From Methylomonas methanica MC09 (GTDB lineage Bacteria > Pseudomonadota > Gammaproteobacteria > Methylococcales > Methylomonadaceae), in assembly GCF_000214665.1 (NCBI RefSeq), contig NC_015572.1, positions 4,836,001 to 4,900,000 of the forward strand: a DNA stretch of 64,000 nucleotides, given 5' to 3'. The translations under genes and the position numbers were made by a program. A model generated the notes under the pieces. The model saw only the letters and a list, made by a program, of their open reading frames with translations, ran no database searches and had not been told where the DNA came from. Positions 2,541-26,005 of the stretch are shown here, in pieces (within the stretch, counting starts at the first letter, position 1; every line of letters begins with the position of its first letter).

Positions 2541-2657
2541 CAAAAATTAGCGGATTGACTTGTATAGTGCCTTTGGTAAAACCTTTTTTCAATGTCACGG
2601 AATTGAAATAATAAACCAATAAACTCAGCTGAAACTCTAGCCACAGGGAGCGTCTAT

Positions 2658-3425: not shown

Positions 3426-3469
3426 TAACGGCAACCGCATAAACCGGCTAGTTGCACAGTATTCGGCAA

Positions 3470-10340: not shown

Positions 10341-10690
10341 GCGGCCGTCATGCGTGGCATTCCAGTAGCTGTAAATTGTGACGTTACCGTTAGGGTCGGT
10401 GACCGACCTGACCCGCCCAGCGGCGTCGAGCTTACGGTTGACGGCGTGGCCGGCCTTGTCGTAGGCCTTGGTCCAACGGTTGACCGGGTCGTAATGGAAC
10501 CCAGCGTGTAGTTGTCCGGATCGGTAATCTGAGTCAGATTGCCGGCCGCGTCGTATTGGTATTGCGCGATGTGGCCGCCGGCGTCCAGGGTGTGTTGCAG
10601 GCGGCCGACGGTATCATAGCGGTAGGCGCTATCCCACAGTCGGGTTTGGCCATTTTGGGTCAGTTCCAGTTCGTCGCTGGAGTACCCGGC
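10341..10690 (-). pseudogene. Frameshifted 5' part of the displaced Rhs fragment
   Basis: This DNA is closely similar to 16400-16690 of the intact rhs gene and encodes, in one frame, repeats such as RYDTVGRLQHTLDAGG. Compared with the intact copy (GTAATCGAAGCCC at 16545-16557), the segment at about 10492-10503 reads GTAATGGAACCC, one base shorter, which shifts the frame. The reading frame upstream closes in the boxA-containing repeat at 10700. Confidence 0.8.
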
Positions 10691-10699
10691 AGGTCCAAT

Positions 10700-10744
10700 G
10701 ATAAATTGTTAAAGAGCAATCGCGACAGATGCGCACGTTATCGC
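10700..10744 (-). repeat. Junction repeat A with rrn-like boxA
   Basis: On the minus strand this repeat reads GATTGCTCTTTAACAATTTA and onward, including TGCTCTTTAACA, the boxA antitermination core of gammaproteobacterial rRNA operons. Positions 10700-10734 match 12928-12962 with two differences. The following ACGTTATCGC matches 12996-13005. Copy A lacks 33 bases present in copy B between two GCGC tetramers. It lies exactly where Rhs homology starts in the displaced tip. Confidence 0.75.
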
Positions 10745-10863
10745 GTTTGATTGCCCAGGAAATTTACAATCAGACCAGATATATGGGAGCAATATTCTTT
10801 TTGTCACGAGCGAATTTTTCTTGCAATACGGGGTAGACCATATATGACCCCGTCCGTTTTTCT

Positions 10864-11061
10864 TTATCCTTGTTGCTCTCGCAACTCTTTAATTTTCTTA
10901 TTCCAATATTTGCAAGCTTCAATATGCTGCTGCCGAGTAATCGCAGTTTTATTTTCAGGATCTGAAGGATCGCCACCAACAATTATTGGAGTTATATCGA
11001 AAATCTCTAGTCCCTCTAAGTCCCGACGATTCTGTTTTCTTATATCAGAGTAACGAGCCAT
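10864..11061 (-). CDS. Small protein resembling the tail of an HNH-type toxin domain
   Basis: A 65-residue protein with the sequence FDITPIIVGGDPSDPENK, then QHIEACKYWN. This pattern (P-x-x-x-GG-D/S-P-x-DP-x-NK, then H, then WN) parallels the C-terminal tip of the Rhs protein at 11747 (IKPVKFDGSPTDPANK, then H, then WWN). The first catalytic-type histidine position is occupied by Asp here (FDITP against VHEIKP). The start codon overlaps the end of the SUKH gene by 17 bases, so the two are translationally linked. It may be an orphan nuclease tail, a decoy or a part of the immunity module. Confidence 0.6.
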   Translation of the reverse strand: MARYSDIRKQNRRDLEGLEIFDITPIIVGGDPSDPENKTAITRQQHIEACKYWNKKIKELREQQG

Positions 11062-11455
11062 CTGATTCCTTCATTCTCTCTAAAAGATGAGTAAAGCTAT
11101 CTGCAACTGGTGATGCATACTGAAGATCCATACCAATAAAAGGAATTTGCACTACCTTGAATGGTTTACTTCTAGTATCAAATCCAAAACCTTCACCACC
11201 ACCATTAGAGCCGAATAAAAATATCCCAGGAGCATACATTTCAACCTCATACTCCTTGTTAAAGACAGCCAATTCCTCAGCTTTCCAAAGGATTAAATAT
11301 TCGGCACCAACAAAACCTTCCCCACCATTAAGCTCAGCAAAAATTGACAAATAATCCTCAGGCAACTTTAAGGCGCTTAAATCAGAGAGCACATTCTTAG
11401 ATGCGCTCTCTCCGAAAGAAAAATCATTAAGTAATTCTTTTATGTGTTCATTCAT
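11045..11455 (-). CDS. SMI1/KNR4 (SUKH) family immunity protein
   Basis: A 136-residue SUKH-superfamily protein. Diagnostic pieces are LPEDYLSIFAELNGGEGFVG (residues 32-51), the strand LILWKAEEL, and GIFLFGSNGGGEGFGFD. SUKH proteins are the commonest immunity proteins of polymorphic toxin systems and often neutralise nuclease toxins. It lies downstream of the displaced Rhs tip with an HNH-like C-terminus (11747-12835), separated by a 290-base AT-rich gap, and overlaps the small HNH-tail gene. Pairing with that toxin is inferred from position. Confidence 0.85.
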   Translation of the reverse strand: MNEHIKELLNDFSFGESASKNVLSDLSALKLPEDYLSIFAELNGGEGFVGAEYLILWKAEELAVFNKEYEVEMYAPGIFLFGSNGGGEGFGFDTRSKPFKVVQIPFIGMDLQYASPVADSFTHLLERMKESDGSLL

Positions 11456-11456
11456 A

Positions 11457-11736
11457 CTAAAGTTTCGGAGTTCATTTTTGGCTATTGGTTGATCGTAAGC
11501 AATTGTTTTATTAATAAAAAATCTGCGTATAAAGTAAAAAATTGATTAGTTTCTTTTTAATTTCGACAGAAAAATAGTAAGTTAGTTACTCTAAATTCAA
11601 ATTTTAGCGCTATATGAATCAATAACTTACAACGAGACATTTTCGAGTCAAGATATGCAGCTTTTAAAGCGAAATTATATTTTAATTGTTTTTAAACACA
11701 ATGAGCTAATGAAAAACATGAATTCCGAAACTTTAG
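11457..11736. repeat. AT-rich spacer bounded by 19-bp inverted repeats
   Basis: The ends 11457-11475 and 11718-11736 are inverted copies (CTAAAGTTTCGGAGTTCAT and its complement) with one mismatch. They enclose about 240 bases of very AT-rich sequence without an open frame. The left copy begins two bases from the SUKH start codon and the right one lies about ten bases from the Rhs-tip stop. It could be a small non-autonomous element inserted between toxin and immunity genes, or a regulatory stem. Confidence 0.5.
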
Positions 11737-11746
11737 ATTCATAACA

Positions 11747-12835
11747 TCATCCAACAAGATCTTTTAGCAACTGATTCCACCAAGGCGTCACCTGCTGCCT
11801 ATGAAGATCTCTATCAAGAATGACCTTATTAGCTGGGTCAGTAGGTGATCCATCAAACTTCACTGGCTTTATTTCGTGAACATCTACAGGCTGGCCACGC
11901 AAGTTGTTATCTACGCGTATTTGGTTGTTTGCTTGATTCGCTGCTTTTCTAGCTGCGTCATACTCAGTACCTTCTAGAAGTTTAAACGGCCCTTGAGGCT
12001 TTGGCACGCTTGAGGGATAACCAGACCAGTCACTAATGGAAAACTCACCCGGCTTAACTACACCCTTTGTAACTCCCAAAGGCATTTCACCCGAGGCGAC
12101 AAAGCCCAGCGCTAACATTTGAGGCGCTGCGGGCACTGCCAATATAGGCACAGTCCCAGTTAGTCCGATAGTTGGGTTATTCTGCACCGCACCGCCAAAT
12201 GCCAGCGTGGTATCACCCAACGTTTGCGAGAACTGTCCAGACGTAAAATAGCTAATGCTCGGCGTTACAGCATTAGAAACCTTAGCCATCAACAACCCCT
12301 TCGGATCGTTGAAATTGATCGGATTGTTATGGACGTAGAGATAGGGATTGACGCCGTCGGTGTAACCGAGCGGATCGCGTTGGGTAAACCGCGTTTGGTT
12401 CGGATCGTAATACCGAGCCCGGTAGTAGATCAAGCCTGAGACGTCGGGCTCGCGTCCGGTATAGCCATATTGCGGGATGCTATTGGCGCCGCCAATCTTA
12501 CTGCCGAAGGCGTCGAAACGTTGGGTGGCTGTGATTGTCTTGGTGGCGTTGGTCATGGCCAGCACGGAACCGAGGCCGTCCTGGTGATAGTAAGCCGCCG
12601 TGGCGGTCGGCAGGTTGACTTGCCCGGTTAGCCTAGCCAGCGGATGGTCGAGGCCGGCTTGCACGTATTGGGCTGCAGGCGTTGCCCAGCTTGTACCGGG
12701 GTATTCGGCGTACAGATTCTGGCCGTCGTACAGGTAGTTGGTCGTGGTGCTGCCTTCTGTTTTCTGGATTCTTCTGCCTTGGTGGTCGTAGCGGTATTGG
12801 CCGGTGGTGACGCCGTTAGACACCACTTGATTCAA
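11747..12835 (-). CDS. Displaced Rhs tip with HNH/His-Me-type nuclease domain
   Basis: A 362-residue fragment (start at a TTG; the frame is open further upstream through YVWSIASRLQQTPDADG to about 12927). It contains the last YD repeats, the Rhs core (YYRARYYDPNQTRF at about residue 145; NPYLYVHNNPINFNDP), a linker and a C-terminal domain of about 90 residues. That domain reads GTEYDAARKAANQANNQIR, then VHEIKPVKFDGSPTDPANK and HRQQVTPWWN, which fits an HNH/His-Me finger nuclease toxin. It lacks secretion and shell regions, so it is a displaced tip rather than a full effector. A SUKH immunity gene follows. Confidence 0.78.
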   Translation of the reverse strand: MNQVVSNGVTTGQYRYDHQGRRIQKTEGSTTTNYLYDGQNLYAEYPGTSWATPAAQYVQAGLDHPLARLTGQVNLPTATAAYYHQDGLGSVLAMTNATKTITATQRFDAFGSKIGGANSIPQYGYTGREPDVSGLIYYRARYYDPNQTRFTQRDPLGYTDGVNPYLYVHNNPINFNDPKGLLMAKVSNAVTPSISYFTSGQFSQTLGDTTLAFGGAVQNNPTIGLTGTVPILAVPAAPQMLALGFVASGEMPLGVTKGVVKPGEFSISDWSGYPSSVPKPQGPFKLLEGTEYDAARKAANQANNQIRVDNNLRGQPVDVHEIKPVKFDGSPTDPANKVILDRDLHRQQVTPWWNQLLKDLVG

Positions 12836-13013: not shown

Positions 13014-13442
13014 TTAGCTCACGTTATCTGGTTGCATCAAACTATATAGGCGCCTCTTTATTGATAGTATAGCTTCATGCCATTTGGGATAATCTTGTTC
13101 GTTCTCTTCCCAAAGCTGCTTTAGTTCGCTGTCATCGCCAAGAACGCGATCAATTGCCTGTAACGCAGCCGGAATCAGCGGAGACGTATCCAAAGACTCG
13201 TGGTTCTTCACCCATTGGCGCACTTCGTCAGGAATATTCGTTGACAGCTTGCCCCGAAAAGCTGTGACAACTTCACAGGCACACAACAGCCGCGCTCCTT
13301 CAGGCTCCTCAATATAATCGGGGGTATCCAAGACAGCATAAATCGCATTATTCAGAATCTCTAAATCGTTTGCATCTGCCAATTCGTTGATCCAATCTGC
13401 CGCATCATCATTGTCAAAAACTCCGCTATCCCAAGCACCCAT
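13014..13442 (-). CDS. DUF4259 family protein, immunity candidate
   Basis: A 142-residue protein starting MGAWDSGVFDNDDAADWINE, the signature start of DUF4259 proteins. The rest is mostly helical (CACEVVTAFRG, WEENEQDYPKWHEAI). DUF4259 proteins are often found beside polymorphic toxins and behave as candidate immunity proteins; biochemical function is unknown. It is the second gene after the large rhs, 27 bases downstream of the 102-residue gene. Either of the two may neutralise the Rhs tip. Confidence 0.75.
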   Translation of the reverse strand: MGAWDSGVFDNDDAADWINELADANDLEILNNAIYAVLDTPDYIEEPEGARLLCACEVVTAFRGKLSTNIPDEVRQWVKNHESLDTSPLIPAALQAIDRVLGDDSELKQLWEENEQDYPKWHEAILSIKRRLYSLMQPDNVS

Positions 13443-13469: not shown

Positions 13470-13778
13470 TCAAAATTCTGAAAATTTACGCCCAAGCTTG
13501 GCTTCAAATTCTGCGATTAGTTTTTCGCTTTGTTCGGGTGCCTTGCAAGCAATTACTTCAGGAGTTTCTCTTAAACCTTGCCGGCAACCTTTTATCATTT
13601 CACGACCAGTCTTGGAATCGACTCCGTCAACTAACATTTGTTTAAACTGAACAAGTGCAGAATCCAGGCTAGCAGCTAAATCAACAAGCCTCGTAATCTT
13701 AGTTTCTTTGAGAAATTCAATTAATTGTTCATAAGTTGTTATGTAAGACTGAATTTTTAAAATAGTAGCTTCTGTCAT
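13470..13778 (-). CDS. Small helical protein, first immunity candidate after rhs
   Basis: A 102-residue, probably all-helical cytoplasmic protein without a family I recognise. Its start codon overlaps the stop region of the 2519-residue Rhs gene by four bases, the tight coupling expected of a cognate immunity protein. The composition is lysine- and glutamate-rich and the DNA is more AT-rich than the Rhs body. Function is inferred only from position. Confidence 0.6.
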   Translation of the reverse strand: MTEATILKIQSYITTYEQLIEFLKETKITRLVDLAASLDSALVQFKQMLVDGVDSKTGREMIKGCRQGLRETPEVIACKAPEQSEKLIAEFEAKLGRKFSEF

Positions 13779-16700
13779 GGTAATGTTCCTGGCGATGTTA
13801 CAGGCCCAATTCTAAATCTTGATGGAGAATTGTCCGGTAAAGCCCCAAATTGTTGTATCGATTCATTAATATAATCGGGGCGGAAAACATTCAAATCCGC
13901 CACCCCATTAATCTTGTTTCTTGCTGTGCCCCCAACGCTTTGCGCGCCTCCATAATAATCGATCAGTTGCTGTTCGCGTCCGCGTATTGCACTTCTATCT
14001 GTTGAAACTGCATCAAGAACAGGCTTGGAAAAACCTTCCGAATTCAACAAAGGTTGTCCTGCTGCTCGCCTGTTTAGTATCTGTTGGGCGGTTTCATCCG
14101 CAAAACCGCTGGTTCTGCCCGAATAGACACTTCCAGTAACCGGATTCGTTCTAGTATAGGTTACATAAACATCCGTGCGGTCTTGGCGAGTGTCGCCAGA
14201 AAGTGACAACGGCAACAAAAATGCACCTATGGAAGAACTGACGGCCCGGCTAGCTACGCCTGAAATACCATTAGCTAGACTCCCAGCGCTTACATCACTT
14301 CCAATTGCTAAAGTTGTTAACCCAATGCCAATATTAGCGTTGTTTGAGAAAGAATTTGAGGTACTAACCGGCTGGGCACTTGACAGGGTCGGGCTGCCGC
14401 TGCTGAAGTTATAGTAGCTCTGGTTTTGGTTCTGCGTCCAGGTGGTGACCGACTTGGCGACGGTGCCGCCCGGATCGTTGAAGTTGACCGGATTATTGTG
14501 GACGTAAAGATACGGATTGATGCCGTCGGTATATCCCAGCGGGTCTCTTTGCGTGAACCGGGTTTGGTTCGGGTCGTAGTACCGTGCCCGGTAGTAAATC
14601 AGCCCGCTGGCGTCCGGTTCTCGGCCGGTATAGCCGTATTGCGGCACGGTGCCGGTGCCGCCGATCTTGCTGCCGAAGGCGTCGAAGCGTTGGTTGGCGG
14701 TCACTGCTTTTGTGGCGTTGGTCATGGCTAGCACGGAGCCTATTCCATCCTGGTGGTAGTAAAGCGCTGTGGCGGTCGGCAGGTTGACTTGCCCGGTCAG
14801 TCGGGCCAGCGAATGGTCGAGGCCGGCTTGCACGTAGACCGCGCTCGGAGTCGCCCAACTTGTGCCTGGGTATTCGGCGTAGAGATTTTGGCCGTCGTAC
14901 AGATAGTGGGTCGTGGTGCTGCCTTCGGTTTTTTGGGTTCTGCGGCCTTGATGGTCGTAGCGGTATTGGCCGGTGGTGACGCCATTAGATACCACTTGAT
15001 TCAAGCGCTGGAAGCTGTCGTAACTGTATTGATTTTGACTGTTGCCGGTGCAAGCCGTGTCGCTGGCTCGGGTGACCGTGCCGCCGCCGCACTTTTTGCT
15101 TTGGTTGCCGGTTTCGTCGTAGAGATAGGCTTCCAACAAAGTACCGCTGAGATTGGTTTGCCGGACTTCGGTCAGTTGGTTGGCGGCATCGTAGGCATAG
15201 GCGGTGGTGGCGGTAACCGGGTTGCCGATTTGCTTTTGCGCCCGGTTGCCCAGTGCATCGTAGCCGAAGGCTTGGGTTTGCGCGGCCGCGCCGTTGTTGA
15301 CTTGGGTCAGCCGGTCGAGCGCGTCGTATTGGTAGCTGTAGTTCAGCGTGGCCTGTCCGCTGAGGATTTCCTGGTTGGTTTTGCGCCTGCCCAGGCCATC
15401 ATAGCCGTAACTGGCTTGGGCGATGACGGTGGCGGCGTTTTTATGGGCGATCTTGCTTAAGCTGTTGTCGGCGTTCCAGACCAGGGTCTGGTCGATGCCG
15501 TTCGGGTAACGGGCTTCGATCAGCCGGCCGCCGGCGTCGTAGTCGAATGTGGTGTGGTCGTAGTTGGGCGCCCACAGGCCGATCAGACGACCGGTTTCGT
15601 CGTACAGGTAGTCGCTACGGGCGCCGTCGCTGTCGGCCGTATAATCCAGCAGTCCGCCCGGGCTCCAACTGTAGCTGAGGGATTTGTTGCCTCTGGAGTC
15701 GGTGATCTCCTTCAACCGGTGGGCAGCGTCGTAGCCGTAATTGTAAGCGACTTCGAGTTGGCTATTGGGGGTTGGGCTCCAGCTTTCGGCGCGGGTGGTT
15801 CGGCCCAGCGGGTTTCGGCTGTAGTGTATCGCGCGGCCGTCTTCGGCGGTCATGCCGAGTAATTGATGGCCGTAGTCCCAGGTATAAGTCAAGGTGTGGC
15901 CGTTCGCGCCCGGCGTTTGTTGGCTGACGACATTGTTGTTCAGGTCATAGGTGTAAGTCGTGACCTGGTTATTGGCGTCGGTTTCGCTGAGTTTGCGGCC
16001 GAAATCGTCGTAGACGTAGCTGGCTTGGCTGGTCACGCTGTCGCCGGCTGAAATACCGGTATCGGGATCGATGTTGGCGCCGCCGTCGGCTGTGGTCTGG
16101 CCGGCCTGAATCTCAAGCAGATTACCCAGGTGGTCGTAGACGTAGCGGGTCAACGGCCTAATCGTTTGGCCGAACGTAGCGGAACTCGGGTTGCTGTCGA
16201 CGACTTGCGGCCCCGCCACCCGGATCAAGCGGCCCAGCGCGTCATAGGTGTTGAGGGTGTCGCGGGCGGCGTCCGTGGAACCGGCGGCCGGCGTGTCGGT
16301 GACTTGGACGGTTTGGCCCAGCGCGTCGTAGTCGAACTGGCGAATTTGTCCTGCGGTGTAACTGCCGATCTTGGGCTGGGTGACGCTTTTCAGACGGCCG
16401 TCTTGGGCGGCGTTCCAATAGCTGTAAAGCGTGACATTGCCGTTGGGGTCGGTGACCGACTTGACCCGCCCCGCGGCGTCGAGTTTGCGGCTGACGGAAT
16501 GGCCGGCTTTGTCGTAAGCCTTGGTCCAGCGGTTGACCGGGTCGTAATCGAAGCCCAGCGTGTAGTTGTCCGGATCGGTAATCTGAGTCAGATTGCCGGC
16601 CGCGTCGTATTGGTATTGCGCGATGTGGCCGCCGGCGTCCAGGGTGTGTTGCAGGCGGCCGGCGGCGTCGTAGTGGCGGTAGTCACTGTCCACCAGTATA

Positions 16701-19700
16701 GTTTGGCCGCTTTGGCTGACCACCAGTTCCTGACCGGTCGGGCGGCCGTCTCCGTCGTAGAACACATCGCGCGGACGGCCCGTGGCATCGGTAGTGCTGA
16801 TCGGCAGGCCGTCGGCGTCGTACACGGTTTGTTGGGTGTGCCAGTCGGCGCCGATGCCTAGCGTCTGCCGTCCCAGCGCATCGAATTGCAGCGTGGCGCT
16901 GTCGGCCGGGTCGGCGGCATTAATAACACCGTCGCCGTTCTTGTCGCCCAGTCTGGCGATTTGAGTCGGATACAGCGTATTGGCATCGTACGTGGTGGTG
17001 ACGGTCGGGCCGGTACCGCTAGTAAAGTTGCCGAGTGTGGCACCGCTGAAATCGCGCAAGGTTTTGCTTTGGGTCGGTTGGCCGGTGGCGGCGTCATAAT
17101 TGCGTTTGGTCCAGGCGGCGATTTCGGCCAACGCGGGTGTGGCGCCGACGGTCGGTGTTTTGCCGGTTTTCAGTTTGACGGTATCGGTCAGGTTGCCCTT
17201 GGCGTCGTATTTCAGCAAAGTCCAATTGCCCAAGGCGTCCTTGATGCGTTGCGGGGCGTTGAAGGCGGTAAAATCGTAATATTCGGTGGTGGCGCCGGAC
17301 GGCTGGGTGATGCGGGTGACATTGCCGGCCGTGTCGTATTGGTATTGCACCGTCAGGCCGGCCGGGTCGGTTTCGCTTTGGCGGTTGAAGGGGTTGGCCG
17401 GGTCGTAGCTGTATGTATGGGCCATGCCGGTTTCGTCGACGATGCGCAGCGGATTGCCGTTTTCGTCGAAGGTATGCCGGCGTTCGTAACCGCGTTCGTT
17501 AACGGTGACGGTTTCGCGGCGGAAGTCCTGGTAGCGGAAGGTGGTGGTTTCCGGCAACAGGGTGCCGTTGTTATGCCGCTGGTGGCGGAACACCCGGCCG
17601 TCCACGTAATAGGAAAACTGCATGCCTTCGCCTTGCGGCGCGGTCGTGGTTTTTAGCGCGTGAGCAAGATTGTGGCCGTCGGCGGCGTTGTAGTAGCTAT
17701 AGCTCAGCGGCGCGTGTTGATTGGCAACGGCCAACGGGCTTTTATAGGTGGCCAAGTTGCCGTCTGCGTCGTAAGCGTATTGGTGAGTAGCGAGTACCGC
17801 GCCGCCGATGGCGTTGATATCGACTTGACTGATGCGGCCGGCCGTATAGCTAAACGCCAGTTTGCGGCCGGGGCCATCGGTGACGTCCTTCAGGGTTTGG
17901 TCGGCGTTATAACTCAGGGCCAGGGTATTGAGGTTGCGGTCCTGGATGGTCAACAAGCGGGCTGATTGCCCGGCAGTGGCACCGGCATTGCTCTCGAAGC
18001 CGTAGCGCAGGCCGTTCTTTTCGGTGACACTCCAGCTGCCGTCGGCTTCGCGCTTAAGTGTCGAGTACACGCCCGGCGCGGATTCGAAGGTACTGCCCGC
18101 CGGCACACTCGAGCCGGCCAGACCAAAGAAACGCTCCGCTCCGGTACCGTCCAGCCAGCCGACCTTGACATAGCCATTCTCGGCACCGTAGAAGTTCAGG
18201 GTATGGTTGAAGCTATGGGTCCAGCCGAAACCCATCGGGCCGTCCTTGGGATTGCGGCTGTTGTAGTTGCGCTCGAACACCAGCGGCAGGCCGCGGCCGG
18301 GCACCGATACATCGCGTTCCGAATGGTACAAATTGCCGGTGGCCAGATTCACCGGATCACCGCCCCAACTTTGCGTGGCGTTCAAGCCGTTGGACAGGGT
18401 GGTGGAGTTGACCGGCGACGGTGAGGCATTGACGATCGTAGCGGGTACGTAGCTGGCGGTGGGGTAGCTGACCGAAATCGGGGTGGGGTACACCAGAGGG
18501 TAGCCGCCGCCCAGACTGCCGCCGATGATGGCGGAGAAATAGCCCTGGGTTTGATTTTCCACCATATAGACCGCACCGTTCCAGGTCTTAGGCTGAGCGC
18601 CGCCGTCGGTATAGGCAATACTCCTGCGCGGTACGGTAACGGTGGATAGATTGGTTACTACCTCTTTTTTAATTGCGGCCTTGGAACCGGCCATGCTGGC
18701 GGTATCCATCCAAGCCGACCAGTTGCTTTCAAAAACGGCATCGCTCATAGGCGTGAAAACACGCAAGGGAATACTGGTTTCGGCCGCGAATTGCAGGCCT
18801 CTGACAGTGGAAACGGCGTCGGTTCGGATCAGTTCCTGCCAAATAAAATGCTCGTAAGCCGAAGTACAATAAGACGACAATTTGAAAGTCGGCCAGATTT
18901 CCGCCCGCTTTGCGGCCAGTTTCGTTTGTTTCGTTGCCTCCGTGTCGGTATCCAATAATACGATGGTCGAATCCAGTTTAGTGAAATGTGCAAGGCCACC
19001 CTTTACGTCGATATAGGGCCCGCTGGGGTGTACCGCAAACGGCAGATCGAACAGGTAGTCCACCGAGAGGCCGGCCGCGGTCAACCCTAGATGCGTTCCG
19101 CTTTCGGCACTCACACCGTTGAGTTCGCCGACGCGTTGACTGGCGTCAGTGACGTAGCGCAGGTATTTCAGTAAAGCAATATGCAGAAATTCGCCTTCCG
19201 TATCATCGTAAGCGGCGGCATTGGCGGGCGTTGGCGCCGTCGGCGCCCCCTGTATTGTTTGAATCAGTTGATCGGCCCGTTCAGCAATCAAGCGGTCGGA
19301 GCCTTGCCGGGCATAGGCCATCAGTGCATGATGCGCACCAGCGACGAGATTGGTATACACAGTTTTATTGAAGCAGTGCAGATCGGGGTCCGGCGTTGTA
19401 TTGCCTGGATCGTCGTTGGGGCAGGAAGGCTGAAGAAGTGTAGTGTCCTCCAGAGACACCTTCATAATCAGCCGATGTTGCGTACCCATTGCCACTGAAC
19501 CGATACCGGTTGCCAATGTGACGCCGTCGACCTTGATGACCGGATGCAGATTCACCAGGCTGGCGGGTAGGCTGGCCAGGTCACCGCCCCAGCTGTCCCA
19601 AATCGATTGCGATGGGGCATCTGCCGGTTCGTAGGAAAGCGTGACCCGTTGATGAACGATAGCGGGTAGCGACAATTGCTGGTCGACCAATAAGGTACCG

Positions 19701-21334
19701 CCGGTGTCGCTCTGTACTTTGATAATAAATTGGTAGCGGTGGCTGCCGGGGAGTTCGGCGGTTTCCGGCGAAGACGACCCGTTCCAATTGACGTATTGCA
19801 CCACTTCATAGGGCAACGTAATCGGCAAGATATCGTAAGTTCTGACAGTTTGCTGGCCTAGATAGGGTACGTCAAGCAGGGTGTTGTCGGCGTTCAGACT
19901 CTTGATGTAGCTTTCGACTTGTGACTCGAAATGCTCGTGCGGTAACACGTTGGTGCGGGTTGCCAAGTAACCGGCCGGGCTGTAATCGAAGGTTACGTGT
20001 TGTTGAATGCCGGCTATGCCCGACTGATAAGTCTTGTCTTTGAAACTGGCATCCAACGGAATCCAGCGATAGCCGCTGTTGTCCGACGAGGCGCCCCGGT
20101 AATTGCCGTAAGGCAGGCAAGCCTCGACCCAGACATGGCGTAATTGGATGCCCCTATTGCTGGTTAAAGCACCCGAATTGGGATTCAGATTGGAGGAAAG
20201 AATGGCGGCGGCGGCTCGATAGTTCTTGGCGCCCACCCAGCGGGGCGCACGGCCGTTGGCTCCCAGGTTCGACCCATCAAGCACCTGGATGTCGCCCAGC
20301 ACATATCGGGCCGGAATATTAGAGGCGCGCAACAGGGCGATCAGCAGCGAGGCTTGGTCGGTCGCGCCGCCGGCACCGCTGTATAGCGTACCGAGAGAGC
20401 CTTTCATGGAGCCGAAGTAGGGCTCGAAACGGATATTGTCGTAAACATACTGGAATATCTTGACCGGTGAGTAACCCAATCTGGCCGCCAGCTCGCGTAT
20501 TTCGCCGTTGATGACGACGTCCTCGTTCTCGGCCAAATCGGTGGCCGGCACGTAACCGCAAGCATTAGCTTCATTAGGTACCGCCGGCGCATTGGCTTGA
20601 GCAGGTTTAGCCAACAGCTCCAGCAACCAAGCGTAGGCTGGCTCATTGGACTTGAACGGCGCCACACTAAGATAACGAGGTAACCGCTTACTGGGTTCGG
20701 CCTGTGTCGCAACAATTTCCGCGCCCAGCCGGGTAGTCGGCATGGGCAGGTTCTCCGGCGCCGCTGCCGCCGCACGTGAGCCGCGATGTAACGAGCCGAT
20801 GTCGGCCCGCAGCCCGCCCAAAGCTCGTCGGCGGGCTTTGTCGCCGCGCGCGTTGGTAAAGTCCGCCAGTGATTTATCCAAGCGGTCGAAGCGTTGTTTG
20901 ATGTGAGCGCTATATCGTTCGAATGCGGCCGCCTTATCCGGCAACTTCATATCGTATAGCTTGGTGCGCATATGCTCGAGCTCACCTTCCACATCTAGCC
21001 GAAAGTCCGCGATTTCGGCACGTTTGGCTTCCAGCAAGTCTTGCTTCACCGGCAAAATATTAGCCTCGCCGTGCTCTTGGCGCCGATCTTCTTCGTTGGC
21101 TTCTTCGATCAGTTCGGCGGCTTCCTCAAGATGCCGGCGCAATGTTTGGGGCGCATTGTGTCCGGGTTGCCGATGCACCTCGAGCAGCGATTGCACCACA
21201 TGGTCTGGCAGTAGCCCGGGATCGGCTGGTAGTGCGTACGCGGCTGAAAAGCTCATAAAAGCCAAACCTGATAAGATCAGCAGGAGATACGGGCGAAGCG
21301 AATGGTGTTGCAACATGAATGAATTCCCTGGCAT
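13775..21334 (-). CDS. Full-length Rhs/YD-repeat protein with transglutaminase-like domain and nuclease-like tip
   Basis: A 2519-residue exported protein and the intact parent of the array. Signal peptide about residues 8-34 (a second ATG at residue 7 is an alternative start). A charged helical region (50-170) is followed by a transglutaminase-like domain (about 285-440) in which the usual Cys is Ala324 (GGATDQA), while His400 (LRHVWVEA) and Asp428 (IPLDAS) remain. A DUF6531-like entry (GNLYHSERDVSVPGRG) comes near 1000, RHS repeats about 1080-2230, and the core YYRARYYDPNQTRF near 2245-2290. The tip contains DVYVTYTRTNPVTGSVYSGR and RGREQQLIDYYGG, which fits a GIY-YIG/URI-type nuclease toxin. 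It sits six bases downstream of the toroid gene and overlaps an immunity candidate. Confidence 0.85.
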   Translation of the reverse strand: MPGNSFMLQHHSLRPYLLLILSGLAFMSFSAAYALPADPGLLPDHVVQSLLEVHRQPGHNAPQTLRRHLEEAAELIEEANEEDRRQEHGEANILPVKQDLLEAKRAEIADFRLDVEGELEHMRTKLYDMKLPDKAAAFERYSAHIKQRFDRLDKSLADFTNARGDKARRRALGGLRADIGSLHRGSRAAAAAPENLPMPTTRLGAEIVATQAEPSKRLPRYLSVAPFKSNEPAYAWLLELLAKPAQANAPAVPNEANACGYVPATDLAENEDVVINGEIRELAARLGYSPVKIFQYVYDNIRFEPYFGSMKGSLGTLYSGAGGATDQASLLIALLRASNIPARYVLGDIQVLDGSNLGANGRAPRWVGAKNYRAAAAILSSNLNPNSGALTSNRGIQLRHVWVEACLPYGNYRGASSDNSGYRWIPLDASFKDKTYQSGIAGIQQHVTFDYSPAGYLATRTNVLPHEHFESQVESYIKSLNADNTLLDVPYLGQQTVRTYDILPITLPYEVVQYVNWNGSSSPETAELPGSHRYQFIIKVQSDTGGTLLVDQQLSLPAIVHQRVTLSYEPADAPSQSIWDSWGGDLASLPASLVNLHPVIKVDGVTLATGIGSVAMGTQHRLIMKVSLEDTTLLQPSCPNDDPGNTTPDPDLHCFNKTVYTNLVAGAHHALMAYARQGSDRLIAERADQLIQTIQGAPTAPTPANAAAYDDTEGEFLHIALLKYLRYVTDASQRVGELNGVSAESGTHLGLTAAGLSVDYLFDLPFAVHPSGPYIDVKGGLAHFTKLDSTIVLLDTDTEATKQTKLAAKRAEIWPTFKLSSYCTSAYEHFIWQELIRTDAVSTVRGLQFAAETSIPLRVFTPMSDAVFESNWSAWMDTASMAGSKAAIKKEVVTNLSTVTVPRRSIAYTDGGAQPKTWNGAVYMVENQTQGYFSAIIGGSLGGGYPLVYPTPISVSYPTASYVPATIVNASPSPVNSTTLSNGLNATQSWGGDPVNLATGNLYHSERDVSVPGRGLPLVFERNYNSRNPKDGPMGFGWTHSFNHTLNFYGAENGYVKVGWLDGTGAERFFGLAGSSVPAGSTFESAPGVYSTLKREADGSWSVTEKNGLRYGFESNAGATAGQSARLLTIQDRNLNTLALSYNADQTLKDVTDGPGRKLAFSYTAGRISQVDINAIGGAVLATHQYAYDADGNLATYKSPLAVANQHAPLSYSYYNAADGHNLAHALKTTTAPQGEGMQFSYYVDGRVFRHQRHNNGTLLPETTTFRYQDFRRETVTVNERGYERRHTFDENGNPLRIVDETGMAHTYSYDPANPFNRQSETDPAGLTVQYQYDTAGNVTRITQPSGATTEYYDFTAFNAPQRIKDALGNWTLLKYDAKGNLTDTVKLKTGKTPTVGATPALAEIAAWTKRNYDAATGQPTQSKTLRDFSGATLGNFTSGTGPTVTTTYDANTLYPTQIARLGDKNGDGVINAADPADSATLQFDALGRQTLGIGADWHTQQTVYDADGLPISTTDATGRPRDVFYDGDGRPTGQELVVSQSGQTILVDSDYRHYDAAGRLQHTLDAGGHIAQYQYDAAGNLTQITDPDNYTLGFDYDPVNRWTKAYDKAGHSVSRKLDAAGRVKSVTDPNGNVTLYSYWNAAQDGRLKSVTQPKIGSYTAGQIRQFDYDALGQTVQVTDTPAAGSTDAARDTLNTYDALGRLIRVAGPQVVDSNPSSATFGQTIRPLTRYVYDHLGNLLEIQAGQTTADGGANIDPDTGISAGDSVTSQASYVYDDFGRKLSETDANNQVTTYTYDLNNNVVSQQTPGANGHTLTYTWDYGHQLLGMTAEDGRAIHYSRNPLGRTTRAESWSPTPNSQLEVAYNYGYDAAHRLKEITDSRGNKSLSYSWSPGGLLDYTADSDGARSDYLYDETGRLIGLWAPNYDHTTFDYDAGGRLIEARYPNGIDQTLVWNADNSLSKIAHKNAATVIAQASYGYDGLGRRKTNQEILSGQATLNYSYQYDALDRLTQVNNGAAAQTQAFGYDALGNRAQKQIGNPVTATTAYAYDAANQLTEVRQTNLSGTLLEAYLYDETGNQSKKCGGGTVTRASDTACTGNSQNQYSYDSFQRLNQVVSNGVTTGQYRYDHQGRRTQKTEGSTTTHYLYDGQNLYAEYPGTSWATPSAVYVQAGLDHSLARLTGQVNLPTATALYYHQDGIGSVLAMTNATKAVTANQRFDAFGSKIGGTGTVPQYGYTGREPDASGLIYYRARYYDPNQTRFTQRDPLGYTDGINPYLYVHNNPVNFNDPGGTVAKSVTTWTQNQNQSYYNFSSGSPTLSSAQPVSTSNSFSNNANIGIGLTTLAIGSDVSAGSLANGISGVASRAVSSSIGAFLLPLSLSGDTRQDRTDVYVTYTRTNPVTGSVYSGRTSGFADETAQQILNRRAAGQPLLNSEGFSKPVLDAVSTDRSAIRGREQQLIDYYGGAQSVGGTARNKINGVADLNVFRPDYINESIQQFGALPDNSPSRFRIGPVTSPGTLP

Positions 21335-21340
21335 CGGGCC

Positions 21341-22732
21341 TTAAGCAGTGAACGTTTTAGTGTGACGTTTAATGTGTTTCATGGCGGCGATCAGTGCAGC
21401 GGCCAGTAGCAATGCCGCCCAACCCGGCATATCCGGCACCTGGATCGGCGCGTTTACGTAGATTTGACCTGCGACGCTGATTTGCAGGTCCGCCGCCGCA
21501 ACCCGATAAACGAAGTTGAATGCACCGCGCTGAGTCGGTGTACCGCTGATCTGGCCGGTGGTCCCGTTCAGAGTAAGACCGTCCGGCAGGCTGCCGGAGA
21601 TCACCGACCATGTGTAAGGCTGGGTACCGCCGTTACCGGCCAATGTCGTGCTATAGGGCTGATTCAGAGTAGCCTGGGCCAATATCATGGCCGTAGTCGT
21701 GCCAGCGGTCTCCATGCCGTTGCCTTTGATCAAGGTTCGACTGTCGGCAAGATTGGGATTGGTGCCCAGCAACTCCGGCGTTTCCACGCCATCGGGGAGT
21801 CCGTCCTTGTCGTTATCCGCCAAGGTGGTGCTTGGCAATGCAGCCAAGGTCAGGGTAGTCGCCAACGTATCCTTGTCGCCCCAATTGCCGTCGGCTTGCT
21901 GCTGGGCGACTAGAAAGTTTTGGGCACTTACCGCGACGGAATCATCGGCCCCAAGCACTGCCACCAGCGCTCGATACGCTAACGAGGTTTCCAGTACCGT
22001 ACCAGCAGAGCCTTGGCCAAAACCGCCGCCGGGTAGTTTCTGTTGCGCTTTAAGCCAAGCAATTCCGGTATTGATATAATTTCCTACAGCTACGGAGTTG
22101 TTGATTTGATCATCGGTACAGTCTATGGAGTAACCGTTATAACGATTGAGCGCGATTAAATTTGAAGCTGTCGAGATAATTTGACTGGTTTGAGGGGTGT
22201 CATCGGATTTTATGTAAGACCACCCATGATCGGCATTTTGCTGATTTAATATAAAACAGACAGCACTACCTTCTTGGTTGTAAGCGGTTCCTGTCTGCTT
22301 AATTGCCTCCAATGCCATAGCGGTATCAGGGGAACTGCCGCTGTAATGATCGTACGCGCCCCAACTGAAAGTGGAATCGTTGCGCCAGTTAATGAGTCGC
22401 GTGACCAGACTAGCGGTGTCCCTCCCGGCTTTAGACAGTGCAATAATCTGCCTGGATAACGCATCGATGCTATAAGCTTGGTGACTTTGCAACCAGGCTA
22501 CCCCTGCGGCAAACGCCGGTCCGTTGGTGACGCCGGCGTCGGCCAAGGCTTCGATAGCCGTTGCGGTATCTTGCATTTCCAATCCTGACGTACCGCGCCA
22601 ACTACCATCTCCGTTCTGATGGCTAATCAACCAAGCCACCCCCTTCAAGCGTGTATCGTCAACTGGCGTTGCATGAGCAGTAGCTGCTGTTATTAGGCCT
22701 AGCCAAAGTATTCTATAAAGCACGCGGCTCAT
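21341..22732 (-). CDS. Secreted alpha/alpha-toroid protein with Ig-like domain and sorting tail
   Basis: A 463-residue protein starting at the ATG at 22732 (GGAG upstream), with a signal peptide ending TAHA. Residues 25-300 carry squalene-cyclase/prenyltransferase-type repeats (GVAWLISHQNGDGSW, AQNFLVAQQQADGNWGD). A calcium-binding-like DNDKDGLPDGVE follows, then a putative Ig (He_PIG-type) domain (GSLPDGLTLNGTTGQISGTP). The C-terminus is VPDMPGWAALLLAAALIAA with a basic end, similar in layout to IPTLxxWG/PEP-CTERM tails. The toroid lacks an evident cyclase DxDD motif, so a binding or structural role is likely. It is probably co-transcribed with the rhs gene and divergent from the exosortase gene. 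Confidence 0.75.
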   Translation of the reverse strand: MSRVLYRILWLGLITAATAHATPVDDTRLKGVAWLISHQNGDGSWRGTSGLEMQDTATAIEALADAGVTNGPAFAAGVAWLQSHQAYSIDALSRQIIALSKAGRDTASLVTRLINWRNDSTFSWGAYDHYSGSSPDTAMALEAIKQTGTAYNQEGSAVCFILNQQNADHGWSYIKSDDTPQTSQIISTASNLIALNRYNGYSIDCTDDQINNSVAVGNYINTGIAWLKAQQKLPGGGFGQGSAGTVLETSLAYRALVAVLGADDSVAVSAQNFLVAQQQADGNWGDKDTLATTLTLAALPSTTLADNDKDGLPDGVETPELLGTNPNLADSRTLIKGNGMETAGTTTAMILAQATLNQPYSTTLAGNGGTQPYTWSVISGSLPDGLTLNGTTGQISGTPTQRGAFNFVYRVAAADLQISVAGQIYVNAPIQVPDMPGWAALLLAAALIAAMKHIKRHTKTFTA

Positions 22733-23209
22733 TTCCTGGTTCTCCGTTGCGTCCCCGGCCAATAGTTGGCATTGGTTTATTTCATGTTCAGACGGTGGTC
22801 ATGCGTATAAAATCTCGCGAAGCCATGCCTAATTCCGGAACAGAAAAACGTTCTGATCAAACTCTTATTTCGCAGCAACTATCACACCAAATCAGTTGAC
22901 AACGCGCTGTCCGGGTCTCGTCTCAAGTCGTCAGGCCAATATCCTAGCGCGCTTCAAAGGTCAATTAGTTGCCGCAAAACCATCATTAAATAATAATACT
23001 CAGCATGGAAAGCCAGACAGTTAAAACTAAACTTTGTTATATGATGCATTTCTGAGTGAGTTATGTGTTAAATGCCACATCTATTCATCCGATAAAATTC
23101 GTATTATGATCGCTCAGTAAATAGGCTGAATTTCTGTTTCTTTCCATTTCAGAAAAGCATGTAAATAGACCTATTCTGCCGCCACATACTTTAATATCCC
23201 CAGGTCGTC
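22733..23209. other. Divergent promoter region between toroid and exosortase genes
   Basis: About 475 bases separate the two divergent start codons. The half nearer 23209 is AT-rich. A TTGACA lies at about 22897, but no matching -10 is at the right distance. I see no tRNA, ORF or strong hairpin. Promoters for both directions are expected here. Confidence 0.5.
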
Positions 23210-23749
23210 ATGAATATTCGTTTCTACGCTATAGACAACTTTCCTATCAACAGGTTATTGAAAAGCTTTTTTTTTCCACTGGGATTTTTGGTAATTTCAC
23301 TGACCCTTGATAGTCTCTACTTAGGCATAAACGATCTCAGTCTGAAGCAGTTTTATCTAAACCATCTGGCATATGCCAGTGCAAACTTCATTAATTTTAT
23401 AACACCGGGAGAAAACGTCGCCGTTTACCAAAATTCAATATCTTCCGGTAAAGTGAATCTGGAAATAGCGCGAACCTGCTCCGGAAGCACCACATTATTT
23501 TTATTAATGGCGGCAATATTAGTTTTTTATGGATCGGTTTGGCATAAAGTATCAGGCATTGTTTTTAGCGTGTTACTGGTATCGTTTCTCAATCATATCA
23601 GGATTGTATCGCTATACTTTTCTTTGGCGTATAACCCGGATTTTTTTTCGTTGATCCATCTTTACATAGCGCCAACACTCACTATTATTTGTTGCTGCTT
23701 ATTTTTTACATGGTGGGCATTTTGGGCGATAGGATCCACGCATGAGTGA
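23210..23749 (+). CDS. xrtH: Exosortase H-like transpeptidase
   Basis: A 179-residue polytopic membrane protein of the exosortase/archaeosortase family. The three catalytic residues are visible: Cys90 in ARTCSGST, Arg131 in NHIRIVSLY and His150 in LIHLYIAPTL. The short length and the following partner gene fit exosortase H, which in known genomes recognises IPTLxxWG-CTERM tails rather than PEP-CTERM. It would cleave and re-anchor exported proteins at the inner membrane. The toroid protein on the other side of the divergent promoter carries a candidate substrate tail. Its stop overlaps the next gene by eight bases. Confidence 0.75.
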   Translation: MNIRFYAIDNFPINRLLKSFFFPLGFLVISLTLDSLYLGINDLSLKQFYLNHLAYASANFINFITPGENVAVYQNSISSGKVNLEIARTCSGSTTLFLLMAAILVFYGSVWHKVSGIVFSVLLVSFLNHIRIVSLYFSLAYNPDFFSLIHLYIAPTLTIICCCLFFTWWAFWAIGSTHE

Positions 23750-24440
23750 TTTGATGGAACCGGATGTTTTGATCAGAATATTGATTACCTGGATAATTAT
23801 TTTTGCCTTAAGTTTTTTTTTCGGAAAACGGTTTTCATTGCTGAGCAAAACCACGCTGTTGCATAGTATTATTCGTTTTGCCATAGTCTGGACAAGCTTG
23901 GCTATCTTGATTTTTGTGTCCAAAAGGCAATATATCGATTTATTTTTACCTTACCTGACATTTGTCATCCACTTAATCCAGGAAGACTACAAGGCCACAC
24001 TGAGCTTGGCCGGTAATAAGGGAGAGTTAATTCAACTAACTGCCGTATTGAATCACAGTGTGGCACGACTCCAGCAAAACACTGTAATGTCAACATTCAT
24101 CGATAGCCTACATTTCATCATGGCGCAGGCATTGCTTTTCTCCATCTTGTTTAGCTGGCCGGTAAAGCGCTTTCGTTCTCGTCTTAAGCTCTTGCTGCTA
24201 GGCGTTCCACTGGCCTTGATCCTGGCGGGATTGACAACGCCCATGTTGTTGGCGGGGCTCAATGAGACGGCTTTTCAGCATATGGACAACGCCTATTTTG
24301 AATCCAGTCAACACTCATGGTTATTAAGCTGGATGTGGCTGGTTGAAAACGCCGGTAATTGGTTTCAAAACGTTGTGTTAGCTCTATTGGGGGGCGCTAT
24401 ATTGCAGCGTATCCAGGCGTCTAATCGAACCCGTGGCTGA
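23742..24440 (+). CDS. Exosortase-H-associated membrane protein
   Basis: A 232-residue integral membrane protein with about five hydrophobic segments (residues 8-27, 42-58, 123-140, 150-172 and near 205-225). It overlaps the exosortase gene by eight bases and is surely co-expressed. Its size, topology and position match the membrane protein usually found beside exosortase H. No catalytic motif is visible. The DNA is AT-rich like the exosortase and unlike the following chromosomal genes. Confidence 0.6.
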   Translation: MSDLMEPDVLIRILITWIIIFALSFFFGKRFSLLSKTTLLHSIIRFAIVWTSLAILIFVSKRQYIDLFLPYLTFVIHLIQEDYKATLSLAGNKGELIQLTAVLNHSVARLQQNTVMSTFIDSLHFIMAQALLFSILFSWPVKRFRSRLKLLLLGVPLALILAGLTTPMLLAGLNETAFQHMDNAYFESSQHSWLLSWMWLVENAGNWFQNVVLALLGGAILQRIQASNRTRG

Positions 24441-24455
24441 CCCGCGGAGATGACT

Positions 24456-25286
24456 TCAGCCTTCAAACCGGTGCGCGATGGTTTGCATCACCAAAATCAA
24501 TACCACCCCGGCCAGAATAAAGCCGATCTGTTGCAGCGAGGTCTTGATATCGGTCTTTTGGTGCAAGGACGGAATCAAGTCGGCCACGGCGATGTAGATA
24601 AAACTGGAAGCGGCCAGGGTCAGGAAATAAGGCAGGATATGATGCAGATCGCCGAGGCTGAAATAGGCCAACACGCCGCCTATCACCGTGGTCAGACTGG
24701 CCAGCATGTTGTAAAACAAGGCTTTGCCGCGCGTGTAGCCGCTGTGCAGCAGGATGGCGAAATCGCCGACTTCCTGCGGAATTTCATGCGCCGTAACCGC
24801 CAAGCTGGTGACTATGCCTAGCTGCGGATCGGTCAAAAACGCCGCGCCGATCAACACCCCGTCGACAAAATTGTGGATGCTGTCGCCCAAGATAATGAAC
24901 ATGCCGGCCACCCGGCGGCCATGGTCGTTATGATGGTTGTGACCGTGATGATCGTCATGCGAGTCCTCGCCGTGGGCCTCGCAGGCATGGGAATGGCAAT
25001 GCCGCCAAACCAGCAGTTTCTCCAGTACGAAAAACAACAAAATGCCGATCAGGATGGTTGCCGACAGCATTTGCATATCTTCAGCCGCCACATCCTCAAA
25101 AGCGTGCGGAATCAACCCGCAAAAAGCCCCAGTCAACAGCGCGCCGATCGCAAAGCTGATACCGTGCGGCAACAGGCTTTGTCTTTTTTGTTCCGGCAAC
25201 AATAAAAACACGCCGGCGGCCAGCACGCTCAAAATACCGCCGATGGCGGTAAAAATGACGATCAATAACAAAGTACTCAAATTCAA
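24456..25286 (-). CDS. ZIP-family metal (zinc) transporter
   Basis: A protein of about 276 residues if it starts at the TTG at 25286, which overlaps the pgeF stop as TTGA; another TTG at 25280 is possible. It has eight expected membrane helices, a cytoplasmic histidine-rich loop (HGHNHHNDHG and neighbours) between helices III and IV, and the metal-site motifs HNFVDGVLIGAAF and HEIPQEVGDFAIL that define ZIP transporters of the ZIP13/LIV-1 branch. Zinc or another divalent metal would be imported. An upstream extension of the frame into pgeF is only overlap and should not be used as the start. Confidence 0.85.
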   Translation of the reverse strand: MNLSTLLLIVIFTAIGGILSVLAAGVFLLLPEQKRQSLLPHGISFAIGALLTGAFCGLIPHAFEDVAAEDMQMLSATILIGILLFFVLEKLLVWRHCHSHACEAHGEDSHDDHHGHNHHNDHGRRVAGMFIILGDSIHNFVDGVLIGAAFLTDPQLGIVTSLAVTAHEIPQEVGDFAILLHSGYTRGKALFYNMLASLTTVIGGVLAYFSLGDLHHILPYFLTLAASSFIYIAVADLIPSLHQKTDIKTSLQQIGFILAGVVLILVMQTIAHRFEG

Positions 25287-26005
25287 TCTCTCCAGATCAG
25301 ACTGGCCATCCGGCCGGTGGCGGCGCCATCGCGGCGGTAGGAATAAAATCGCGCATCGGCCACCGTGCAATAACCGCCGCCATAAACGCGTTCGACCCCG
25401 AGCTCCGCCAGTTGCAAGCGCGCCAGTCGGTAAATATCCGCCAACCATTTGCCGGGGCCGTTGCTGCTAAAGGCTTGGGCGGCTGCGACATGGCCGGAAA
25501 CAAAAGCCTCCCGCACCTCATCGCCCACTTCGAAATTTTGCGGGCCGATGGCCGGCCCCAACCAGACCGAAACCTCGCGGCATTGCATCGCCGATAAGGT
25601 TTGTTTGATGACACCGGCCTGCAAACCGCGCCAGCCGGCATGGGCCGCGGCAATCTTCGCCCCGTCGTCGCCGCAAAACAATACCGGCAGACAATCGGCG
25701 GTCAACACCGCGCAAACCGTAGCGGCTCGATCGGTAAAACTGGCGTCGGCTTCAGGCTGGCCATGCACGCTATCGGCCTGCACTACCTCGATGCCGTGCA
25801 CCTGCTGTAGCCAGACCGGCTCGGCCGGCAATTTCAGCATTTCTTTGATAATGCGCCGGTTGGCCGATACATGCTGCGGATCGTCGTTGACATGGCCCGC
25901 GGGATTCAGACTGGCATAAGCGCCGACACTGACGCCGCCGTTACGCACAGTGGTGGCGGCATGCACCTGCGCGGGCAACGGCCAATCAGGCTTGATCCAG
26001 TTCAT
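25283..26005 (-). CDS. pgeF: PgeF/YfiH laccase-domain protein
   Basis: A 240-residue protein of the YfiH/PgeF (DUF152, Cu-oxidase_4) family. The zinc-binding and active-site pattern is present: QVHGIEV with His around 65, ADCLPVLF with Cys about 105, and AAHAGWRG with His about 122. Family members act as purine nucleoside phosphorylase/adenosine deaminase-like enzymes and as peptidoglycan editing factors. The gene overlaps the end of rluD by 20 bases and the transporter start by a few bases, so the three genes form one operon. The rluD-pgeF pairing is common in gammaproteobacteria. Confidence 0.92.
   Translation of the reverse strand: MNWIKPDWPLPAQVHAATTVRNGGVSVGAYASLNPAGHVNDDPQHVSANRRIIKEMLKLPAEPVWLQQVHGIEVVQADSVHGQPEADASFTDRAATVCAVLTADCLPVLFCGDDGAKIAAAHAGWRGLQAGVIKQTLSAMQCREVSVWLGPAIGPQNFEVGDEVREAFVSGHVAAAQAFSSNGPGKWLADIYRLARLQLAELGVERVYGGGYCTVADARFYSYRRDGAATGRMASLIWRD

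Follow-up and report, generated by a model that had tools for sequence, protein, structure and literature searches.

The window analysed here, 64,000 nucleotides of Methylomonas methanica MC09 (contig NC_015572.1, positions 4,836,001 to 4,900,000; the 5.05 Mb genome is one contig), encodes an exosortase-family membrane cysteine enzyme, XrtM, and a membrane partner that lie divergently from a toroid protein with a C-terminal sorting tail and a giant transglutaminase-Rhs (TG-Rhs) protein. The grouping recurs in the genus and in other orders of the class, the tail tracks XrtM, and the C-terminal tip of the Rhs protein is exchanged among relatives. Judging from the sequences, we think it probable that the toroid, once its tail has been processed by XrtM, can hold or release a Sec-exported Rhs toxin at the surface, and the whole would then quite probably be a polymorphic-toxin locus served by an exosortase. 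The initial annotation of this DNA had placed the enzyme, with Cys90, Arg131 and His150, and its membrane partner divergently from the toroid gene, and all of these parts, coordinates and motifs are present.

XrtM (179 aa, 23210-23749, forward strand) scores 256.6 bits against TIGR04300 (cut-off 125), its best NCBIfam model, and 37.4 bits against Pfam Exosortase_EpsH (cut-off 25.7). It resembles XrtM both in this score and in its conserved Cys, Arg and His residues. The enzyme had been annotated as exosortase H-like, a label that has to be replaced: it reaches 37.9 bits against exosortase H (TIGR04177), below the cut-off of 86, and XrtM fits. No exosortase H exceeds the cut-off in any of the 37 genomes of our genus set, whose named records are Methylomonas, methane-oxidising bacteria. 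An alignment of 20 of the 23 XrtM proteins of the genus has 17 invariant positions, Cys90, Arg131 and His150 among them. We take Cys90 to be the nucleophile and Arg131 and His150 to be its catalytic partners, in line with the exosortase and archaeosortase literature.

The partner gene (232 aa, 23742-24440, forward strand) overlaps xrtM by eight bases. A partner adjoins XrtM in 22 of the 23 genus loci and in 24 of 27 further loci from named genomes, where two of the three misses are at a contig edge. The protein has no NCBIfam or Pfam match at E 0.01, and 109 listed homologues are likewise without a Pfam domain; those that carry a name at source are 'hypothetical', 'uncharacterized' or 'DUF4149 domain-containing'. 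Its AlphaFold model (pLDDT 87) consists of long helices with a three-strand insert and has no convincing match in the PDB (best E 0.47). Kinship between the partner and XrtM was rejected by profile comparison.

The toroid open reading frame (ORF) on the reverse strand opens at TTG 22762 (21341-22762). An in-frame ATG at 22732 is the likelier start and is followed by what appears by eye to be a Sec-type signal peptide. The protein encoded from this ATG (21341-22732) continues with an alpha/alpha toroid, an Ig-like domain and the sorting tail, and matches Pfam SQHop_cyclase_C and the Ig-like He_PIG. Its predicted structure (mean pLDDT 73) matches the folds of squalene-hopene cyclase, transcobalamin and complement C3d/C4. 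The catalytic motif of squalene-hopene cyclase is DxDD; the toroid lacks it, and we rejected that identity in spite of the similar fold. The GCxEQ motif is also absent from the sequence.

The toroid ends in VPDMPGWAALLLAAALIAAMKHIKRHTKTFTA. This tail (21344-21439, reverse strand) has the tripartite layout of a short proline motif (VPDMPGWA), a hydrophobic helix, modelled as such over residues 447-472, and a basic end. By sequence it reads as a variant of the IPTL-CTERM sorting signal, the tail type that exosortase H handles. Relatives pass the corresponding models: a protein of the XrtM locus in genome G005 scores 24.5 bits against PF18203 (cut-off 20.8), and the tail IPTLSEWG of the toroid in locus L281 passes both TIGR04174 (22.5 bits, cut-off 20.5) and PF18203 (26.9 bits). 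The Pfam IPTL-CTERM model has three matches in the genus, namely the G005 protein (over the cut-off), the G008 toroid (just below it) and a reading frame in G016 (over it). The suggestion that the toroid C-terminus is a variant sorting signal is thus borne out by the tripartite tail, by its tracking of XrtM and by these relatives.

A database search returned 146 matches to the toroid, 120 of which were carried into a length and motif filter that 64 passed. At least 43 of the 64 have [VIA]Px[LMVIFA][PS] in their last 46 residues, some as IPTLPEWG or VPTLPEWG, at least 10 more end in TPTLPEWG or VP[LIM]PxWA tails, and at least 11 have neither form. One relative (P0131) is named 'IPTL-CTERM sorting domain-containing protein' by NCBI. 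A few toroid relatives (L285:6620-8161, P0149, P0167, P0172 and P0193) have, by eye, a dockerin-like end and not a sorting tail.

Six bases separate the toroid stop from the start of the giant Rhs gene (2519 aa, 13775-21334, reverse strand), exactly as annotated. The protein has an N-terminal Sec-type signal peptide (by eye), RHS_repeat, DUF6531 and Transglut_core domains and a TIGR03696 Rhs core. Its body is 71-79% identical over about 2300 residues to seven relatives, six of them genus copies (one in the window's own genome) and one a Methylococcaceae copy. The last 115-197 residues of the relatives do not align, and the tip of the window protein, about 231 aa past the core (13778-14470), has no Pfam match. 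Further downstream are two orphan tips, genes for a SUKH and a DUF4259 protein, and two small genes placed as immunity genes would be. With its conserved body, exchanged tip, downstream immunity genes and orphan tips, the giant gene has the predicted architecture of a polymorphic toxin of the Rhs type.

The transglutaminase-like domain (residues 290-429, 20048-20467) is a Pfam match that reads GAGGATDQAS in the motif region. There is no cysteine in this region, where we would presume the active-site cysteine of a transglutaminase to lie. The motif was located by script in eight of 19 sequences including that of the window, none with a cysteine; the motif expression had no match in the other 11. 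The annotation as a surface-exposed Rhs/transglutaminase-like protein therefore stands as to its domains, and is to be amended to a polymorphic toxin whose transglutaminase motif lacks the cysteine.

In the genus, XrtM exceeds its cut-off in 15 of 37 genomes, at 23 places. The window's genome has the most, five (G000:C1 at 1194287, 1568216, 2166064, 4044640 and 4859297), followed by G032 with four. All five adjoin a TG-Rhs gene, and an Rhs gene or remnant lies within 10 kb of XrtM at 16 of the 23 places; the Rhs neighbours in G032 include one that is convergent and one that is a remnant. An objection drawn from gene neighbourhoods, that exosortase, toroid and rhs would show no recurrent link elsewhere, fails: the three are found together again, both within the genus and in further orders of its class.

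The same association is seen from the side of the toxin. The 37 genomes hold 19 transglutaminase matches, reduced to 17 TG-Rhs by dropping G025 and G035, which are giant Ig/PKD proteins without RHS repeats and adjoin a protein that is PEP-CTERM-like by eye; in three of the 17, adjacent genes encode the transglutaminase part and the RHS repeats separately. Fourteen of the 17 belong to XrtM loci, counting G028, where the locus is split over two contigs and linkage is presumed. A VPx[LMV]P-tailed protein is encoded upstream of 13 of these 14, from a 32-base overlap to a distance of 741 bases, and is a toroid in 11 cases and a 215- or 199-residue protein in two. None of the three unlinked TG-Rhs has such a protein (p 0.006; this and all later p-values ignore relatedness and treat genomes as independent, which they are not). 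With G025 and G035 kept, the unlinked group is 0/5 and p is 5e-4. Two unlinked genes (L119, L120) follow toroids ending by eye in TSP3-like repeats, and the third (L264) has no tailed neighbour. Full toroids, counted after dropping 12 of 27 search rows that matched the Ig domain only, occur in 11 of the 37 genomes, and 10 of these 11 have XrtM (p 8e-5).

The tail tracks XrtM. Chance occurrence was rejected by a search of the genus DNA with the pattern VPx[hydrophobic]PxW[G/A/S/C/W], which misses tails without a tryptophan such as VPAVPNIG. It gave 111 matches in the 37 genomes versus 66 for a backwards control, and all 111 were inspected, 104 in retrieved stretches and seven in known loci. Only 10 are true gene ends with a hydrophobic helix, and all 10 are in eight XrtM-positive genomes: nine in XrtM loci, while the tenth is the G028 toroid on its other contig. 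When the screen was widened, 24 of the 929 ORFs in DNA from XrtM loci carried the tail (five loci are counted twice and one protein is about 20 kb away), as did three of 188 control ORFs, all three being toroids already counted. Among toroids whose end is readable, 16 of the 17 beside XrtM are tailed versus none of the six elsewhere, or 15 of 16 versus none of six if the weak toroid relative L296, which lacks a SQHop match, is left out. Excluded from this comparison are fragments and broken copies (G022, L283, L284, L288, L289) as well as toroid domains that form part of a larger ORF (L290, L292, L293).

XrtM loci extend beyond the genus. An alignment-based scan of named genomes gave 32 loci, 27 of them distinct from the genus loci, where a single-sequence scan had found nothing. 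Proteins with a [VI]Px[LMV][PS] tail are encoded in six of these further loci (L130, L131, L133, L135, L142, L150) and a sizeable Rhs gene in four (L127, L134, L135, L150). Of 369 genomes sampled from the class, 14 encode an XrtM-like protein (E 1e-15), 13 have the toroid and five have both (expected 0.5). Four remain without the window's genome (G228, G161, G151 and G298; p 4e-4), and they represent four families outside the window's order, each with the XrtM-toroid pair on one contig, 0.6-12 kb apart.

The surroundings of these pairs are the clearest evidence. We examined 11 class XrtM loci, leaving out the XrtM-like matches of G122 and G359. In L281 (G228) the toroid, the XrtM-like gene, the partner and TG-Rhs follow each other on one strand, and the last three overlap. 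L282 (G161) repeats the window's divergent layout, with the XrtM pair on one side and genes for a tailed protein of 600 residues, a tailed toroid and TG-Rhs on the other; L150 (Chromatiales) is also divergent. In L284 (G298) two other tailed proteins are encoded divergently from the XrtM pair, and a toroid fragment and TG-Rhs lie beyond them. L283 (G151) retains a toroid fragment together with an Rhs remnant. The XrtM-like gene, partner, weak toroid relative and TG-Rhs of L296 (G369) are collinear. The enzymes of L281, L282 and L296 score 92-107 bits, below the XrtM cut-off, with XrtM still the best model, and that of L150 scores 127 bits, over it. For three of the four distant XrtM relatives that were scanned, XrtH comes second among the enzyme models. 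The proposal of a dedicated local XrtM-toroid-Rhs system is supported by this linkage in the genus and other orders, including the L281 toroid-XrtM-partner-Rhs operon, and by the tail.

The phylogeny of the enzyme adds to this picture. In a tree of 44 XrtM sequences the window copy groups with G000:4044640 from the same genome, which also has the divergent layout (100/93). A third divergent copy, G008:C142, joins them on long branches (97/88), and the three are separate from the collinear copies of the genus. L150, also divergent, is placed elsewhere, so layout is not simply a matter of descent. The window XrtM is 29-39% identical to the other 19 aligned, whereas the window toroid, 56-62% identical to seven close relatives, and the Rhs protein (71-79%) are close to the partners of collinear XrtM copies. 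Pairing of one toroid-Rhs family with two deeply different XrtM lineages argues for functional dependence.

Several observations weigh against this interpretation. The window tail itself has no PF18203 or TIGR04174 match at E 0.01, and a G016 match over the IPTL-CTERM cut-off (G016:C52:13122-13190) falls within a frame of 51 codons, in a genome that lacks XrtM; it is perhaps a chance match or the substrate of another enzyme. In one toroid-Rhs-XrtM locus, G032:2180907, the exception to the 13 of 14 above, the toroid has no tail. The many tailed database toroids are no test of the link to XrtM, because the surroundings of most are not known. Seven of the 23 genus XrtM loci have no Rhs in the DNA examined (two are at contig edges), four of the 27 further named loci have a sizeable Rhs and one has remnants only (many contigs are short), and XrtM is over its cut-off in just three of the 369 class genomes. 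The 11 class loci comprise four with TG-Rhs, one with a fragment and six with none. TG-Rhs operons occur without XrtM too; G387, for example, has a toroid with a dockerin-like end (by eye) and TG-Rhs without XrtM, and an exosortase H elsewhere in the genome. Finally, XrtM is not exclusive to toroid and Rhs, because XrtM loci carry other tailed proteins (subtilases, RCC1, an LTD/phosphatase-domain and a laminin-G-domain protein). The XrtM-Rhs linkage is therefore frequent and not obligatory.

We propose the following mechanism. The toroid and the Rhs protein would both be exported by Sec, as their signal peptides suggest, and the IPTL-type tail would hold the toroid in the inner membrane. XrtM, with Cys90 as nucleophile and aided by the partner, may then cleave at or near VPDMPGW and hand the toroid to an envelope acceptor, so that it could reach the outer surface. 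The route may be type II secretion, which the two candidate GspD secretin genes over the cut-off in the window's genome would permit. There the toroid-Ig protein could serve as carrier or anchor of the Rhs shell, perhaps by binding the shell's cysteine-less transglutaminase domain. The shell would deliver its exchangeable tip to a neighbouring cell while the adjacent immunity genes protect the producer. As a broader and more tentative idea, Gram-negative bacteria may mount or release Sec-exported Rhs shells by way of a toroid-Ig carrier whose exchangeable end sets the attachment. That end might be an IPTL-type tail, sorted by XrtM where this is co-encoded, or a dockerin- or TSP3-like end where a toxin operon lacks the enzyme, a scheme on which we would hesitate to commit.

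The main rival to surface mounting is release, because the same sequences are compatible with it: XrtM would cut the tail and the toroid, with or without Rhs, would leave the inner membrane and be secreted as a soluble complex. The genetic evidence fits equally, and some toroid relatives have no membrane tail, consistent with a soluble form. We nevertheless regard release as unlikely, as a plain signal peptide would be enough for it and, in the available text of the reports on archaeosortase (PMC7157517) and myxosortase (PMC11980579), substrates stay anchored once cleaved. It is also conceivable that two independent modules share a hot spot, an XrtM-toroid surface unit and Rhs genes that repeatedly insert alongside it, as they do in other islands; XrtM and TG-Rhs are each found without the other. 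Such coincidence appears improbable given the six-base gap between toroid and Rhs, the mutual overlap of XrtM, partner and Rhs behind the toroid in L281, the pairing of toroid and Rhs even where XrtM is missing (L119, L120, L285) and the association of the deeply diverged window XrtM with the same toroid-Rhs family.

That the tail is an ordinary membrane anchor and no exosortase substrate would agree with its lack of a match over the IPTL-CTERM cut-offs. Its motif is conserved in the toroid family, however, including in IPTLPEWG-type members, relatives pass the IPTL-CTERM models and none of the six toroids examined away from XrtM carries the tail, so we consider this highly improbable. Delivery of Rhs by a type VI secretion system, with unrelated neighbours, would find a full-length VipB/TssC homologue in the genome. 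It is scarcely credible for a protein with a Sec-type signal peptide (by eye) and no PAAR match at E 0.01, and we set it aside on those grounds.

The toxin fits a known class. Zhang et al. 2012 (PMC3482391) described Sec-dependent polymorphic toxins with an inactive N-terminal transglutaminase and RHS repeats, and proposed that the inactive domain may anchor the toxin through peptide binding. The window protein shares with them the signal peptide, cysteine-less transglutaminase motif, RHS shell, variable tip and immunity genes, and the locus adds an exosortase and a tailed toroid; the first 300,000 of the 357,715 characters of that paper contain no 'sortase', 'CTERM' or 'EpsH'. The locus shares its tail type with the exosortase H/IPTL-CTERM system (TIGR04177; TIGR04174, PF18203) and differs in that its enzyme is below the XrtH cut-off and adjoins its presumed substrate. 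A functional parallel is the myxosortase of TraA (PMC11980579), where, according to the available text, a membrane protease removes a tripartite C-terminal MYXO-CTERM tag from a contact protein that reaches the outer surface by type II secretion. Myxosortase belongs, by the same text, to another protease family (CPBP) and its tag carries a lipidated cysteine. For archaeosortase (PMC7157517) as for myxosortase (PMC11980579), the parts available describe tripartite tails that are cleaved from proteins remaining surface-anchored. The VARTIG modules of Thermococcales (PMC8416519), as far as the accessible text goes, contain an Ig-domain protein and are organised like a polymorphic toxin system; they differ in being archaeal, and 'exosortase' occurs there in the reference list only.

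The accessible part of the founding exosortase paper reports no processing experiments; it describes genomes that encode many tagged proteins, and a connection with exopolysaccharide. In the open-licence literature we found no description of the substrate or context of XrtM (TIGR04300), none of a combined exosortase, toroid and Rhs, and no publication joining exosortase with XrtM, XrtH or Rhs plus transglutaminase; the available text of a paper on S-layer shedding in Methylomonas does not mention an exosortase. Trafficking by an exosortase-sorted carrier is thus new relative to the literature searched. If it is correct, the exosortase would belong to a contact-dependent weapon and not to exopolysaccharide metabolism. 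The holding of Sec-exported TG-Rhs toxins outside the cell has so far been a suggestion by Zhang et al. (PMC3482391). L281 and the window hold compact loci in which the enzyme, its partner and the tagged protein lie beside a protein whose expected phenotype is competition, and in a genus with cultured methanotrophs a few deletions would make both toxin holding and exosortase processing testable. The recurrence of this grouping in other bacteria suggests a dedicated way of placing a competition toxin outside the cell.

The toxin-related genes behind the Rhs gene are all on the reverse strand. Directly behind the tip is a 102-aa candidate immunity gene (13470-13778), named from its position alone and with no family match above the cut-off. 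It is followed by the DUF4259 protein (13014-13442; PF14078, 124.3 bits, cut-off 22.8), a second candidate immunity gene, likewise by position alone. The first orphan tip (362 aa, 11747-12835) joins the end of an Rhs body, 71% identical to the main Rhs over 247 aa, to another tip, and has the SMI1/KNR4 immunity-type SUKH protein behind it (11045-11455; PF09346, 35.4 bits, cut-off 25.4). The second orphan tip (826 aa, 7860-10340) matches the main Rhs for 650 aa, at 88% identity, and then differs. The 194-aa gene behind it (7264-7848) has no family match and is a candidate immunity gene by position alone. Neither orphan tip has a Pfam match outside the RHS repeats.

A second class of Rhs proteins was found in XrtM loci L036, L039, L047, L050 and L055, where a conserved end, GGF[VL][IL]YPN[KM]xNTxxIxxVY, replaces the variable tip; the end in L047 departs slightly from this form. 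Subtilase-domain neighbours with tail-like ends occur in XrtM loci without a detected Rhs (L133:10388-12301, L136:3896-5749, L151:7242-9878 and L051:6840-9509, the last two with less typical ends) and are perhaps another exosortase-displayed class. L294 (G096) has two XrtM-partner pairs about 7 kb apart (2598-3486 and 10262-11474), the first XrtM apparently shortened. The XrtM gene of L139 is at the contig end of a metagenome bin labelled Bordetella parapertussis, a doubtful label.

In L262 (2-10034) and L263 (1-9991) a giant Ig/PKD and transglutaminase protein directly follows a small protein that is PEP-CTERM-like by eye, perhaps a parallel arrangement served by an ordinary exosortase. Near the toxin locus, the window encodes two proteins (2658-3425 and 5688-6413) with PEP-CTERM-like ends by eye, VPLPASLNILLSGLAFML and VPVPGAVWLFGSALLGLVG, which are probably destined for the genome's long exosortases. 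A gene lying tail-to-tail with that of the XrtM partner (24456-25448) has a product that resembles, by eye, a ZIP-type metal transporter with a histidine-rich loop.

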